Assembly: GCA_902386385.1 (NCBI GenBank)
Contig: CABMIU010000022.1
Location: 1 to 40,157 of the forward strand
Direction of reading: 5' to 3'
DNA length: 40,157 nt
From: an uncultured archaeon
Lineage (GTDB): Archaea; Iainarchaeota; Iainarchaeia; Iainarchaeales; Iainarchaeaceae
Shown here: positions 7,880-30,581 of the stretch, one piece after another
Layout of the letters: the number at the start of each line of letters is the position of its first letter
Numbering within the stretch: position 1 is the stretch's first letter
Position numbers and translations under genes: made by a program
Notes under the pieces: model-generated
What the model was told of the DNA's origin: nothing
Databases searched by the model: none
Seen by the model: the letters and a program-made list of their open reading frames with translations, nothing else

Positions 7880-8000
7880 TGCACCCGCCGGGATTTGAAC
7901 CCGGTCCAAGAGCTCACTCCAACCATTTTCATAAACGCTTTTTTCCAGAAGGGAAAAAAGGTTATGGAAGGCTCTGAGGCTACCGTTACCCCACAGGTGC
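7880..8000 (-). tRNA. tRNA-Gly(UCC) with a 50-base BHB intron
   Basis: Acceptor stem GCACCUG pairs with CGGGUGC, discriminator A at 7880, no encoded CCA. D stem GGGU/GCCU, T arm GACCGGG-UUCAAAU-CCCGG. The anticodon stem AGAGC/GCUCU is interrupted by an intron at 7915-7964. The junction folds as a classic bulge-helix-bulge: stem AGAGC/GCUCU, three-base bulge UGA, four-pair core CUUC/GGAG, three-base bulge CAU, stem AACC/GGUU. Cutting after the second bulge base on each side gives the seven-base loop CUUCCAA, anticodon UCC, with the intron at the canonical position 37/38. Mature length 71. Confidence 0.93.
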
Positions 8001-8083: not shown

Positions 8084-8701
8084 ATGCCTGGCTTTTTCAT
8101 TGTCTTCGAGGGCCTTGACGGCTCCGGCAAGGGTACCTGCATAAAGCTCGTGCACGAGGCGCTCCTGAAAAAAGGCTTTCCGAAGGAAAAATTCCTGCTG
8201 ACCGCCGAGCCCACCGCTGGCTATTATGGCCGGAAGGTGCGCGAGCTCCTGAAGCAGGATATTGGCCCGAAAGTTAACGCCGCCCAGTTCCTTGATTTGT
8301 ATGTCTCGGACAGGAAGGAGCACATAGAGAAAGTCATTCTTCCCGGCCTCGCCGGAAATAAAATAATTCTGTGCGACCGCTACAAGTACAGCACCTTCGT
8401 TTATCAGCAATTGCAGGGAATCCCTATTGAAAAAATCCGTTCCCTGCACGAATTGATGCCGGTGCCGGATTTGGTTTTCATCCTTGACATTCCCGCCGAA
8501 GTTGCCCTGAAGAGGATTTCGCGCCGCAAGAGCCTGGAGAGCTTCGAGCGCAGGGATTTCATGGAGAAGGTCCGCGCTGTCTTCCTTGAACTGAAGGGAA
8601 CATTCCCGCAGGAGAACCTTGTTGTTATTGACGCCTCGAAGGAAATTCCTGCGGTGAAGAACGAAGTTGCCGGAATAATTGAAAATAGGCTTAAGGCCTG
8701 A
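8084..8701 (+). CDS. tmk: Thymidylate kinase
   Basis: Phosphorylates dTMP to dTDP with ATP in the cytoplasm. The 205-residue product begins MPGFFIVFEG, with the P-loop GLDGSGKGT at residues 10-18, the dTMP-binding segment AEPTAGYYG, the DRY motif at 98-100 (DRYKYST) and the lid region RRKSLESFERR. Length and motif spacing are normal. The open frame continues upstream through the tRNA gene, but ATG at 8084 fits the family start and lies 25 bases from a TATA box, so it is the start. Monocistronic. Confidence 0.95.
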   Translation: MPGFFIVFEGLDGSGKGTCIKLVHEALLKKGFPKEKFLLTAEPTAGYYGRKVRELLKQDIGPKVNAAQFLDLYVSDRKEHIEKVILPGLAGNKIILCDRYKYSTFVYQQLQGIPIEKIRSLHELMPVPDLVFILDIPAEVALKRISRRKSLESFERRDFMEKVRAVFLELKGTFPQENLVVIDASKEIPAVKNEVAGIIENRLKA

Positions 8702-8760
8702 AATTGGCTTGATTTTCTTACGAACCAGTTCTTTTTCTTTACAAGAAAAAAACCTGAAAA

Positions 8761-8800
8761 TGCGACCGCCGGGAATCAAACCAACCGTTTCGTCGGTTGG
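8761..8800 (-). pseudogene. Truncated tRNA-Gly(GCC) 3' end joined to a stem-loop
   Basis: Positions 8761-8780 repeat the last 20 bases of the intact tRNA-Gly(GCC) gene (8994-9013), with the first 16 identical and two changes in the T loop. At the T-loop boundary the match stops and a seven-base perfect stem-loop CCAACCG/CGGTTGG takes over (8781-8800). The upstream AT-rich hairpin sequence is also shared with the intact copy. It lacks anticodon and D arms, so it cannot be a working tRNA. Confidence 0.7.
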
Positions 8801-8837
8801 GTGCGACGGTTATCCCGTCTGCGAGACGGGATAAGCC
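8795..8837. repeat. Dispersed palindromic element, short copy
   Basis: Contains the inverted repeat TTATCCCGTCT/AGACGGGATAA around the loop GCG. On the opposite strand its two arms match the ends of the larger element at 33985-34099: 13 of 13 bases at GGCTTATCCCGTC and about 22 of 25 at the arm starting GACGGGA. The two copies differ mainly in the size of the loop between arms. It follows directly on the truncated tRNA-Gly end. Confidence 0.65.
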
Positions 8838-8957
8838 TGCTGTTATTTAATTGTCCTGTCGCATTGGGCATTTTTTGCCGAATCAGTTCTTTTTCTTTTT
8901 GCCTCGTGTTTCCTTGCCCCTTTAGGGACGAGGTCTCGTGCCTTCTTGGGCACAAGA

Positions 8958-8982
8958 TTCTTTTTCTTTCCAAGAAAAAGAA
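8958..8982 (-). terminator. AT-rich hairpin downstream of tRNA-Gly(GCC)
   Basis: Perfect 11-base inverted repeat TTCTTTTTCTT/AAGAAAAAGAA with a three-base loop, 12 bases past the tRNA 3' end on the minus strand. The transcript would carry long U-runs, fitting archaeal termination. Related hairpins occur at 9354-9386 and 28971-29000, and a partial one near 8728-8750. Confidence 0.5.
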
Positions 8983-8993
8983 AAACGCGAAAA

Positions 8994-9065
8994 TGCGACC
9001 GCCGGGAATTGAACCCGGGCCCCGACCTTGGCAAGGTCGAATCATAACCACTAGACAACGGTCGC
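8994..9065 (-). tRNA. tRNA-Gly(GCC)
   Basis: Cloverleaf on the minus strand: acceptor GCGACCG/CGGUCGC, D arm with UAGUGGUUA, anticodon stem CGACC/GGUCG with loop UUGCCAA (anticodon GCC), T arm CCGGG-UUCAAUU-CCCGG, discriminator A. 72 bases, no intron, CCA not encoded. Its 3' end is duplicated at 8761-8780. Confidence 0.96.
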
Positions 9066-9136
9066 TTTACAAAGGAATTTGCCCAGCAAAGTATTTTAAA
9101 ATACAATAATCCCGGCAAGCAGGCATTGGATGCCTT

Positions 9137-9229
9137 ATGCCCCCTCGCAGAGGGTACGACGTCCGCTCCACCAATCGGAGCATGCGATTAGGCCGGGCAG
9201 GAACCGAAGAAACCTTTGCCAAAGGTTTC
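9137..9229 (-). pseudogene. Truncated tRNA-Val 3' end joined to stem-loops
   Basis: Positions 9189-9208 repeat the last 20 bases of tRNA-Val(UAC) (9278-9297) with two differences, then the match stops at the T loop and a perfect nine-base stem-loop GAAACCTTT/AAAGGTTTC follows (9209-9229). On the other side (9137-9188) lie two more small hairpins, including CCCTC/GAGGG and GCTCC/GGAGC, and a GGGTACGACG segment resembling the element at 8795-8837. The arrangement mirrors the truncated tRNA-Gly copy. Confidence 0.6.
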
Positions 9230-9277
9230 CCCAAATGTACCATTCCGCGATATGCCACTTCGCTACGCTCAGCGGCA

Positions 9278-9350
9278 TGGGCCGGGCAGGAATCGAACCT
9301 GCGACTTCATCGGTGTAAACGATGCGTCATAACCGCTAGACCACCGGCCC
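9278..9350 (-). tRNA. tRNA-Val(UAC)
   Basis: Acceptor GGGCCGG/CCGGCCC, D arm with UAGCGGUUA, anticodon stem CAUCG/CGAUG with loop UUUACAC (anticodon UAC), T arm GCAGG-UUCGAUU-CCUGC, discriminator A at 9278. 73 bases, no intron, no CCA. Its 3' end is duplicated at 9189-9208. Confidence 0.96.
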
Positions 9351-9353
9351 GAC

Positions 9354-9386
9354 CTTTTTCTTTTTCTTGGGAAGAAAAAGAAAAAG
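9354..9386. repeat. Perfect 15-base AT-rich inverted repeat
   Basis: CTTTTTCTTTTTCTT, loop GGG, then its exact complement. It lies just upstream of tRNA-Val on the minus strand, so it is not that gene's terminator. It is the longest member of a hairpin family also seen at 8958-8982 and 28971-29000. Confidence 0.65.
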
Positions 9387-9464
9387 CTCGATCAAAAAGA
9401 AAAAGAACCTGTCTTCGGTGGAAATCCAGCGAAGGCCGTTCCTGAAAAATCACTTGGGCGCAAG

Positions 9465-13359: not shown

Positions 13360-13767
13360 ATGGCTCATTACAACAAGGGCGCGAACGCGGAGCGGGAGCT
13401 CCTGAAACTTGTGTGGGACAAGGGCTTTGTCGTGGCTCGCACCGCGGGTTCAGGGAAAAACCCTTTGCCGATGCCGGATTTGATTGTGATGGGCAAGGGG
13501 CGTTCCATTATAATTGAGGCAAAGGCCTGGCGCGCCAACAACCTGACTATTATTGGCGAGAAGATGGGGGAGCTATTCAAGTGGCGCGATGTCGCAGGCG
13601 CTGAGGTTTACATCGCGTGGAAGTATCCCAACAAGGGGTGGTTTTTCATCAGGCCTGAAACGTTCCGCAAGGCAAAGAATTATTCCATTTCAATTGCCGA
13701 GGCGCAGCGCCATGGCCTGCTCCTTGACGTGCTCCTCGGCGAACAGAGGCAGCTGCCGCTGCAGTGA
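13360..13767 (+). CDS. hjc: Holliday junction resolvase Hjc
   Basis: Structure-specific endonuclease that cuts four-way junctions during recombination. The 135-residue product shows the archaeal Hjc motif set: KGANAERELLKLVWDKGF (catalytic Glu near residue 11), RTAGSGKNPLPMPDLIVMGKG (Asp 40) and SIIIEAKAW (Glu 53, Lys 55), a PD-(D/E)xK nuclease. ATG at 13360 gives the family start; a GTG at 13342 would be too close to the TATA-like CTATTTAAA at 13319-13327. The last codons overlap the tRNA-T-loop-like sequence GAATCGAACC of the intergenic element that follows. Confidence 0.94.
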   Translation: MAHYNKGANAERELLKLVWDKGFVVARTAGSGKNPLPMPDLIVMGKGRSIIIEAKAWRANNLTIIGEKMGELFKWRDVAGAEVYIAWKYPNKGWFFIRPETFRKAKNYSISIAEAQRHGLLLDVLLGEQRQLPLQ

Positions 13768-13867
13768 ATCGAACCGCCTATTGGCAGGCCTGCCCCGTCG
13801 AAGATGGGGCCTCCGTCGCTCCGAAATGCCGAAGGCATCCGCCCTTCCGAGGCGGTCTCGGACGAAA
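13766..13867. repeat. Dispersed palindromic element next to hjc
   Basis: Begins with the tRNA T-loop-like GAATCGAACC, then a series of hairpins: GCCT/AGGC, CCCC/GGGG, ATGCC-GAA-GGCAT and CCGCC/GGCGG. The segment GCCCTTCCGAG followed by GCGGTCTCGGACG matches the element at 33985-34099 base for base, except that the copy there carries about 44 extra bases between the two parts. No gene is present in this gap. Confidence 0.6.
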
Positions 13868-28940: not shown

Positions 28941-28970
28941 CTAAGCCAACACTTTTCTTTTTCGCCAGCG

Positions 28971-29000
28971 TTTTTCTTTTCTTGTTTAAGAAAAGAAAAA
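28971..29000. repeat. AT-rich 13-base inverted repeat
   Basis: TTTTTCTTTTCTT, loop GTTT, and its exact complement. It lies between the truncated Cys-rich frame and the promoter of the 29067 gene. Same type as the repeats at 8958-8982 and 9354-9386. Confidence 0.6.
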
Positions 29001-29037
29001 GGCTGTTGCTGGACCGGCAATGTACCCCCTCCAAATG

Positions 29038-29047
29038 CTTTTTAAAG
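29038..29047 (+). promoter_or_regulatory. TATA box of the 504-residue gene
   Basis: CTTTTTAAAG centred about 24 bases before the ATG at 29067. Confidence 0.55.
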
Positions 29048-29066
29048 GCCGAAACAAAGTCTTTTC

Positions 29067-30581
29067 ATGTTTCCCCCGGTGCGAATGCACCTGTCCAGCG
29101 TCGCGTACATTGAGGAAAAGGGGCAGGTTGCGGCGGAGTTCTCGAATGCGAAGGAGCGCAGGCGCATACGCTACGGTTTCGTTCCGAAGGCGCACTTTCC
29201 GGCTTCCGATGAGTCTGAAAGGTCCAGGATGAAGGAATTGTTTTTCCGGGAGGGCCTGAAGCGCATAATGGTAGAGCCAAGCCGGAATTCGCTGGAAGTT
29301 TCATCCCGGGATTTCTCCGCGCTGCGGAAGGCAGCGGAAATCGCGGGTGCTTTTTTCGGGGAAAAGTTCGCTGTCATTGAGCCTGAGAGGCAGTTTCTCA
29401 TTGAAACCGGCTGGAATTACCTTGATTCCTTTGAAATGAATTTCGAACCTGAGCCATTGGAATTTTTCGGGCTGCCTGATTGCCGTCCCGATTTCATTTC
29501 AGGCACGCTTGCAAGCGATTTTGCAGGGCTCTTGGAATCCAATCCGCGGCTTGCCGGTGGCATGGCTGAAAGGCTTGCTTTCTCGCGCCTTTTGAAGGAG
29601 CCTCCTTATTCGCCCGGGCAGATGGAAATTGGCCAGGGCGTTTCCGTAAAGGCATTCCTGGAAAATGTTTCCTTTGCTTCTTCCCTGCCGGTTCGTGATT
29701 TTGGCCAGGTCGTTGTCTCCGGTTTTTCCGGCAGCTCTGGCGAGGAGTTTAGGCGTGCTTCTCGTCCTGCAATTGATTTTTCAGGCCTTGTTTCGGTTGT
29801 ATGCTCCGAGCCTGTGAACAATCTCAGCCTTGATGCAGGGGCGTGCAAGTGCTGTTCCCCATCCTCTCTTTCCGCGGAGAACCTTTTGCCTTCAAGCACT
29901 GTCATTGTGAGGTTCCTGCGCGAGGGGGTTTACTTCAATTCTTCCTCGCAGTTCTGGGCGGGGCGCTTCCATGCTTCCATGCCGAACAAGGATGCGCGCT
30001 CGCAGAGGATGATGGATTACGGCTACAGCTCTGTCCCTGTCGGCCCTTTTTCTCGCTTCGAGGAATCAGAGGTGCTTCTCGCAGATGCAATGCACCTGCA
30101 GGCTTCAGGTCTCTGTGAAATAGTTTCAGCCGCGAGGCTTGAGTGGGTTTGTTCCAAGTCGGAAAACCCGCTCTCCAGGGGGATAAATTTTCTCCTGCAG
30201 TCGGCTGAAAAAGCCCAGGCATATTCCCGTGCAGCTGCTTCGCAGAACGCAGCTTCAAACGGCCTGAGGTATTATACCCTTGGCACACCTGAGAAGATTT
30301 ATTCCGAAGCTGTTTCGGGCATTGCAAATTCGGTCCTTTGCGCTTTGCCTGCAGCGCTCTCCCGCTTTTCCGGTGATGGCGCGAGGCTTGCCCTGGAATC
30401 AATTTCGGGTGAGATTGCGAGGGATGTCTGTGAGGTTGCATCTTCGCTCGGGGCGAGGGCTTGTCATGAAAACACGAAAGTTTATGTAGAAAGCGATTTT
30501 TGCCATGAGGTTTTCAGGCAGGTTTCGCAGCTCTATAATGTGAAAAAGCCGCTCCTGAGGCTTGAATTGTCCCCTGAATAA
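29067..30581 (+). CDS. Large soluble orphan protein, 504 residues
   Basis: I do not recognise this family. No signal peptide or membrane helix. Seen: MFPPVRMHLSSVAYIEEKGQVAAEF, a basic stretch RRRIRYGFVPKAHFP, a long Phe/Ser/Glu-rich middle with EPLEFFGLPDCRPDF, and a cysteine cluster ACKCCSPSS near residue 268 that could bind metal. The second half is helical, with DAMHLQASGLCEIVSAARLEWVC and further single Cys residues. Codon use is like the neighbours, TATA spacing is 24, and the frame is 504 codons long without stop, so it is clearly a gene. Nothing nearby explains its role; a lineage-restricted family is likely. Confidence 0.85.
   Translation: MFPPVRMHLSSVAYIEEKGQVAAEFSNAKERRRIRYGFVPKAHFPASDESERSRMKELFFREGLKRIMVEPSRNSLEVSSRDFSALRKAAEIAGAFFGEKFAVIEPERQFLIETGWNYLDSFEMNFEPEPLEFFGLPDCRPDFISGTLASDFAGLLESNPRLAGGMAERLAFSRLLKEPPYSPGQMEIGQGVSVKAFLENVSFASSLPVRDFGQVVVSGFSGSSGEEFRRASRPAIDFSGLVSVVCSEPVNNLSLDAGACKCCSPSSLSAENLLPSSTVIVRFLREGVYFNSSSQFWAGRFHASMPNKDARSQRMMDYGYSSVPVGPFSRFEESEVLLADAMHLQASGLCEIVSAARLEWVCSKSENPLSRGINFLLQSAEKAQAYSRAAASQNAASNGLRYYTLGTPEKIYSEAVSGIANSVLCALPAALSRFSGDGARLALESISGEIARDVCEVASSLGARACHENTKVYVESDFCHEVFRQVSQLYNVKKPLLRLELSPE

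Follow-up and report, generated by a model that had tools for sequence, protein, structure and literature searches.

Two tRNA genes in the window, a 40,157-nucleotide stretch of DNA from an uncultured archaeon of the Iainarchaeaceae (assembly GCA_902386385.1, contig CABMIU010000022.1), each have their own 3′ end repeated downstream. The best explanation of these copies as a whole, to which we assign a probability of roughly three in four, is that tiny non-coding hairpin elements insert at tRNA T loops and at protein-gene edges, duplicating the target. In the insertion reading itself our confidence is high, and higher than in any single mechanistic step. It builds on direct observations: the repeats, a structured and conserved module, the dispersal of that module, target sequences of unrelated kinds that are directly repeated beside it, and relatives in which sites are empty.

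Displaced tRNA 3′ ends

In the tRNA sense, the last 20 nt of tRNA-Gly(GCC) (8994..9065, minus strand; ARAGORN, Rfam 59.8 bits) recur 213 nt downstream (8761..8780, minus strand), and those of tRNA-Val(TAC) (9278..9350, minus strand; ARAGORN, Rfam 68.3 bits) recur 69 nt downstream (9189..9208, minus strand). Sequence comparison gives 18/20 identical positions in each case, and both copies span the T loop to the discriminator. They represent 3′ ends in the tRNA sense because both tRNAs lie on the minus strand. The stems that the original prediction had placed next to the copies are present, a perfect 7 bp on the Gly side (CCAACCG/CGGTTGG) and a perfect 9 bp on the Val side (GAAACCTTT/AAAGGTTTC). 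In the tRNA sense these hairpins lie immediately 5′ of the copies that they abut, between intact tRNA and copy.

Scanning the 300 nt 3′ flank of each of the 48 tRNAs in the genome (G000; 1.09 Mb, 63 contigs) showed that the copies are real and excluded chance, since four tRNAs have a copy of their own 3′ end with two mismatches and the other 44 have at least seven. The two cases outside the window are tRNA-Thr(TGT) on contig C10, with a gap of 51 nt, and a Gly-type tRNA on contig C62, with a gap of 77 nt. Copies beyond this region, the same breakpoint and the same hairpin, on which the original prediction had staked its mechanism, were all found.

The claim of a consistent breakpoint in the T loop held. 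Among eight tRNA cases, with two element families taken together, the perfect block starts at tRNA positions 52-59 in seven; the exception is a tRNA-Gln, in which the start is reached only after two mismatches. At insert A, however, the repeat runs past the tRNA 3′ end: its perfect block of 21 nt covers positions 58-78, 5 nt beyond the tRNA, and a weaker match (48/57) extends into the terminator. Over the eight cases the perfect block ends at positions 71-78, mostly at or just beyond discriminator 73, a limit partly explained by selection, because the tRNA survives only if the block extends as far as position 73. Selection on tRNA survival does not account for the T-loop start.

Several other tRNA loci of this genome are unusual. 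In the insert that follows the Gly-type tRNA (C62:15967-16043), the 5′ edge resembles by eye the 3′ end of tRNA-Thr (15/20), as if a Thr-like end had been carried along from a copy beside tRNA-Thr. At C38:4491-4740 (L067) a duplicate of the tRNA-Leu(CAG) 5′ end (ATGCAAGGGTGGCGG) lies about 150 nt upstream, the two copies flanking a hairpin-rich insert; the gene for a second-class tyrosine recombinase lies directly downstream of this tRNA. The Tyr call of ARAGORN at C30:8491-8603 looks by eye like tRNA-Val(GAC) with an intron in the D arm.

Structure and dispersal of the inserted elements

A common module, hairpin - CCGTCGCACCC - hairpin CAACnGnCGAAACnGTTG, directly precedes three of the four tRNA copies, and a fourth module lies on contig C47 with no tRNA nearby; the inserts, and not just the tRNA fragments, therefore need explaining. 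The module is laid out as hairpin 1 (TTATCCCGTCnGCAGACGGGATAA), CCGTCGCAC and hairpin 2 (CCAACnnnCGAAACnGTTGG). In insert A it occupies 8782..8836 on the minus strand, with hairpin 1 (TTATCCCGTC/GACGGGATAA), CCGTCGCACC and hairpin 2 (CCAACCG/CGGTTGG), the latter abutting the duplication (fold z -5.3); it scores 76 bits with the covariance model R1, to whose training set this copy belongs. The 5′ part of insert A (8837..8993, minus strand) is probably composite: the sequence and the repeat survey reveal a T-rich terminator together with copies of another hairpin repeat, unrelated to the first (CTTTTTCTTT...AAAGAAAAAG).

The element is about 50-100 nt long and without coding capacity, and the inserts at tRNA sites measure 51-213 nt. 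Its 3′ hairpin forms a fixed end abutting the duplication, while the 5′ end and the insert length vary. By eye, no terminal inverted repeats were seen in the inserts read between duplications, and the 5′ ends are unlike one another and variable.

Within one subtype, represented by 17 distinct copies, paired cells make up 94.8%, a percentage that is biased because the structure was taken from single-sequence folds of the same copies, and ten pairs show double changes. The covariation counts are less affected by this bias: 43 double-change cells were counted against 12.5 +- 3.2 in shuffles, and slid structures were far worse. Hairpin 1 varies freely in sequence with its pairing kept. RNAalifold recovered only five pairs from an alignment of all 49 copies because hairpin 1 is misaligned in it, and the subtype alignment with a pre-named structure was therefore used.

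The pattern GTCGCACCCAACNNNCGAAACNGTTG, allowing up to three mismatches, was matched in seven of the eight genomes that represent this family of Diapherotrites (1-19 matches each) and in two others of the order; its reversed control gave 0 matches in the same genome set. A search of 84,980 representative genomes with a similar exact pattern returned 30 stretches, 25 of them titled Candidatus Diapherotrites. The others belong to four untitled 'archaeon' MAGs that match family members and to one genome titled Woesearchaeota, which shares an identical stretch with G006 and, judged by that identity, may be misbinned. The exact module pattern had 0 matches in IMG/VR, and viral carriage was rejected on this ground. 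R1 was built from 18 copies, which match it by construction, and its E-values are rough. It detects 12 copies in G000 and, across all eight family genomes, 3-37 per genome; outside the family its matches are few and weak.

The original prediction had also named a third, weaker site at 13766 after hjc, a T-loop-like sequence followed by a hairpin. It is not a tRNA end: neither a tRNA copy nor a flanking repeat was detected at the site, its tRNA-like look comes from the strand opposite to the module, and no matching tRNA was found. The real feature is a module on the plus strand beyond the hjc stop codon (13788..13826; R1 24.1 bits, E 0.003), whose fold is no better than that of shuffles (z -0.4) and which, from its model score, appears to be a weak, diverged member of the first element family.

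Elements may also lie close together. In G003 they form tandem clusters, 60-76 nt apart, on contigs C14, C30, C62 and C86 (L152, L192, L168 and L195), apparently as nested or serial insertions, and in G004 the end of carA (L172) seems to have been entered by two elements in succession.

Insert B (9209..9277, minus strand, 69 nt) does not match R1. It consists of a TGCCGCT..AGTGGCA hairpin followed by a GGGGAAACCTTTGGCAAAGGTTTC hairpin that abuts the duplication (fold z -2.8), and it represents a second, similarly built element family. Its last 32 nt recur with 97% identity in the sister species G001, between another tRNA, called as Ile, and a copy of the 3′ end of that tRNA. In G050, which belongs to a different family of the order, an unrelated hairpin insert of 40 nt (L141) separates tRNA-Gly(TCC) from a perfect 17-nt repeat of that tRNA's end. 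The T loop is therefore an insertion hot spot shared by different hairpin elements; T-loop insertion appears to be wider than the first element family. The original prediction was right in suggesting a single kind of process and a shared T-loop breakpoint, and in listing an element that targets T loops among its options.

A larger dispersed repeat, present in dozens of copies, consists of a T-rich/A-rich hairpin (AACCTTTTTCTTTCTCTT..AAGAGAAAGAAAAAGGTT) and then a mirror copy of the purine arm of that hairpin (AAAAAGAAAGAGAA), an arrangement from which a triple helix could form. It is found genome-wide, and in the window at 8729-8750, 8880-8990, 9352-9425 and 28943-29070. Besides lying between genes, this repeat makes up the introns in many tRNAs, among them those for Cys, Asn, Pro, Ser, Arg, Tyr and Glu.

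Target duplications and empty sites

Module copies outside tRNAs, at the ends of protein genes, likewise lie between direct repeats of their target. In the youngest copies these repeats are perfect, with lengths of 29, 26, 23, 20 and 19 nt (29/29 nt at L182, 26/26 at L181, 19/19 at L148), and longer, diverged repeats occur at msrB (L185), carA (L172) and fttA/aCPSF1 (G000 C48). Some perfect repeats lie at gene starts (L181, L303). When direct repeats were anchored at the element 3′ end, 20 of 97 copies scored at least 12, compared with 2 of 288 swapped controls. The duplications range from 11 to 47 nt. Around three quarters of the copies are without a clear duplication, owing to age or to another origin, and this counts against the insertion reading. 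An unbiased scan of the genome under study for near repeats around short inserts yielded more candidates, for example C8:9816 and C49:4610.

Repeats at gene ends (msrB, carA, fttA and L191, stops included) show 17 synonymous and 2 non-synonymous codon differences, in cases selected by protein similarity, which favours a synonymous excess. Such repeats could reflect either a functional copy under constraint or an element that arrived with its own gene end. Comparison with the fttA end of the sister species favoured neither the constrained copy nor the imported gene end, and imported gene ends, suggested by the codon comparison, were set aside.

The cluster tRNA-Gly(TCC) - tmk - tRNA-Gly(GCC) - tRNA-Val(TAC) is conserved, whole or in part, through the order. 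Its syntenic anchors in the window are tRNA-Gly(TCC) (7880..8000, minus strand; Rfam 44.9 bits, and ARAGORN with introns), which has a 50-nt anticodon-loop intron, and the thymidylate kinase gene tmk (8084..8701, plus strand; PF02223, E 5e-39, and neighbours in relatives). In G006 about 5 nt separate the 3′ end of tRNA-Gly(GCC) from the point where the tmk match ends, with no copy, and in G025 the Val and Gly tRNAs are 8 nt apart, again with no copies. The copy at the fttA end is absent in six relatives (G001, G002, G003, G005, G008 and G009; G004 is not readable there). Given these empty sites, the insertions in the window are derived.

Because the relatives keep the gene order without the copies, we interpret them as insertions with target-site duplications and not as tRNA halves. 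An origin from tRNA halves or truncated tRNAs, as had been proposed, is also contradicted by duplications that surround 51-213 nt inserts and by the duplication of protein-gene ends. Split, permuted or T-loop-intron tRNAs were rejected as well, as no matching 5′ part lies beside the fragments and the inserts are a dispersed repeat.

Mechanism and relation to known systems

In the mechanism that we propose, a non-coding element of about 50-100 nt would insert at a tRNA T loop or a protein-gene edge. The target would be cut with a stagger, the element would be joined to the cut target, and fill-in would create the target duplication. Roughly 11-35 bp of target are duplicated per insertion, so that the gene keeps a complete end and the displaced copy remains outside the element. 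The form recognised is probably a folded single strand, of DNA or RNA, because hairpin 1 changes its sequence but keeps its pairing. The mobilising enzyme would act in trans. No enzyme family examined as a candidate correlates with the element copies in these incomplete MAGs, and the duplications vary in length to a degree unusual for a DNA transposase; both points count against the proposed explanation.

SINEs are eukaryotic non-autonomous retroelements that are polar and structured, with a fixed 3′ end, a variable 5′ end and duplications of variable length. The elements described here share all of these traits, and they also lack terminal inverted repeats, vary in insert length and have a covarying structure, as would be expected if element RNA were copied at a nicked target by a trans-acting reverse transcriptase. 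Such a route is a mechanism for the insertion reading and no alternative to insertion. We consider it unlikely, as PF00078 had 0 matches in the eight family genomes (incomplete MAGs), although several copies look recent from their perfect duplications, and there is neither an A-tail nor another known priming feature. Gene content thus lends no support to the reverse transcription that the original prediction had raised. The elements are, moreover, archaeal and only 50-100 nt long; they are SINE-like in anatomy, with SINE membership unproven. Diversity-generating retroelements were rejected, as a reverse transcriptase was not found and tRNA targets do not fit.

A still less probable reading is that integrative elements of tyrosine recombinases entered at the T loop and were later deleted to 50-200 nt, leaving the fragments as attachment sites. 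Archaeal tyrosine recombinases commonly use tRNA genes (PMC8371274), and their integration leaves identity blocks from the T loop to the 3′ end, just as the displaced 3′ ends begin at a tRNA loop here. PF00589 genes are of general presence, in all six family genomes searched, with a second, larger integrase just past tRNA-Leu(CAG) on C38, and in some gene-end repeats nearly all differences are synonymous, as would fit an imported gene end. The 51-213 nt inserts, however, contain no genes (no integrase inside) and share a conserved internal module that is dispersed at many unrelated targets, protein genes included. Independent deletions would not leave an identical module beside each repeat, and a single integrase would not fit so many different targets. 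The elements in a survey of archaeal tRNA fragments measure about 9-23 kb (PMC9897764), whereas here no large element with matching ends, or far end, was found within 12 kb. Autonomous long copies were dropped as a candidate after a search within 12 kb of 20 copies that lack a near duplication yielded none.

The strongly conserved structure, the many copies beyond stop codons or tRNA ends and the tandem clusters in G003 would also suit a selected functional RNA or terminator-like module that follows gene ends and is spread by ordinary recombination, with repeats arising from slippage. We regard this as very improbable, given the perfect 19-29 nt target repeats at unrelated genes in different genomes, some of them at gene starts (L181, L303), and the lineage-specific presence of the module. 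Chance, or decay of tandem duplicates of whole tRNA genes, is scarcely credible: the retained part is the best-conserved part of a tRNA and tRNA genes do duplicate, but the jump from two to at least seven mismatches, the modules common to tRNA and protein-gene inserts, and the empty sites in relatives all argue against it.

Insertion of small hairpin elements, the reading that we prefer, invites comparison with further mobile systems. MITEs are similar in being short, non-coding, dispersed and multicopy (here 50-100 nt and 3-37 copies per genome), with target duplication in young copies and direct repeats that fade with age. Unlike MITEs, which have terminal inverted repeats of about 4-30 bp (PMC10969869), the elements here show none by eye, are polar with a fixed 3′ hairpin, and make longer, more variable duplications. 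Casposon or Cas1-type integration also takes the tRNA 3′ end as a target with target duplication; casposase duplications, however, are fixed at 14-15 bp, come with inverted repeats and need the casposase (PMC6977970), whereas those here span 11-47 nt without inverted repeats and no Cas1 (PF01867) was found in G000-G005, and casposase was rejected. The short dispersed palindromes recall REP/RAYT systems, and a Y1 transposase gene in four of the eight family genomes initially seemed correlated with the elements. It is absent from G002 and G005 and was then found absent in G006 and G007, and so is not in all carriers. RAYT genes are flanked by their own REPs, and their IS200/IS605 relatives make no larger duplication (PMC2817692), whereas here duplications are present and no module lies within 1.5 kb of Y1 genes. 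Integron attC sites were considered because ACCCAAC resembles RYYYAAC, and rejected, by eye, on the target duplications and the lack of GTTRRRY.

The combined features match no known family fully, and we file these elements under non-autonomous mobile elements. That they form a new class of archaeal mobile element, with a polar, structured, SINE-like anatomy, long variable duplications, a T-loop hot spot and an undescribed mobilisation route, is a tentative proposal, with the odds somewhat against it. Searches of the open-licence literature, mostly at the level of titles and abstracts, returned no prior description of such elements, which is weak evidence of novelty.

With these results, tRNA fragments that had looked odd can be recognised as traces of insertion by a family of micro-elements. 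The hosts are DPANN archaea, a group in which mobile elements have, to our knowledge, been little described. As the absence of inverted repeats, the covarying hairpins and duplications that reach 29 nt or more do not, in combination, fit the known prokaryotic systems tested, the enzyme becomes a concrete question. For annotation, tRNA ends truncated at the T loop need not signal large genomic islands. Because each element duplicates the gene end that it enters, such elements spread through compact genomes without breaking genes.
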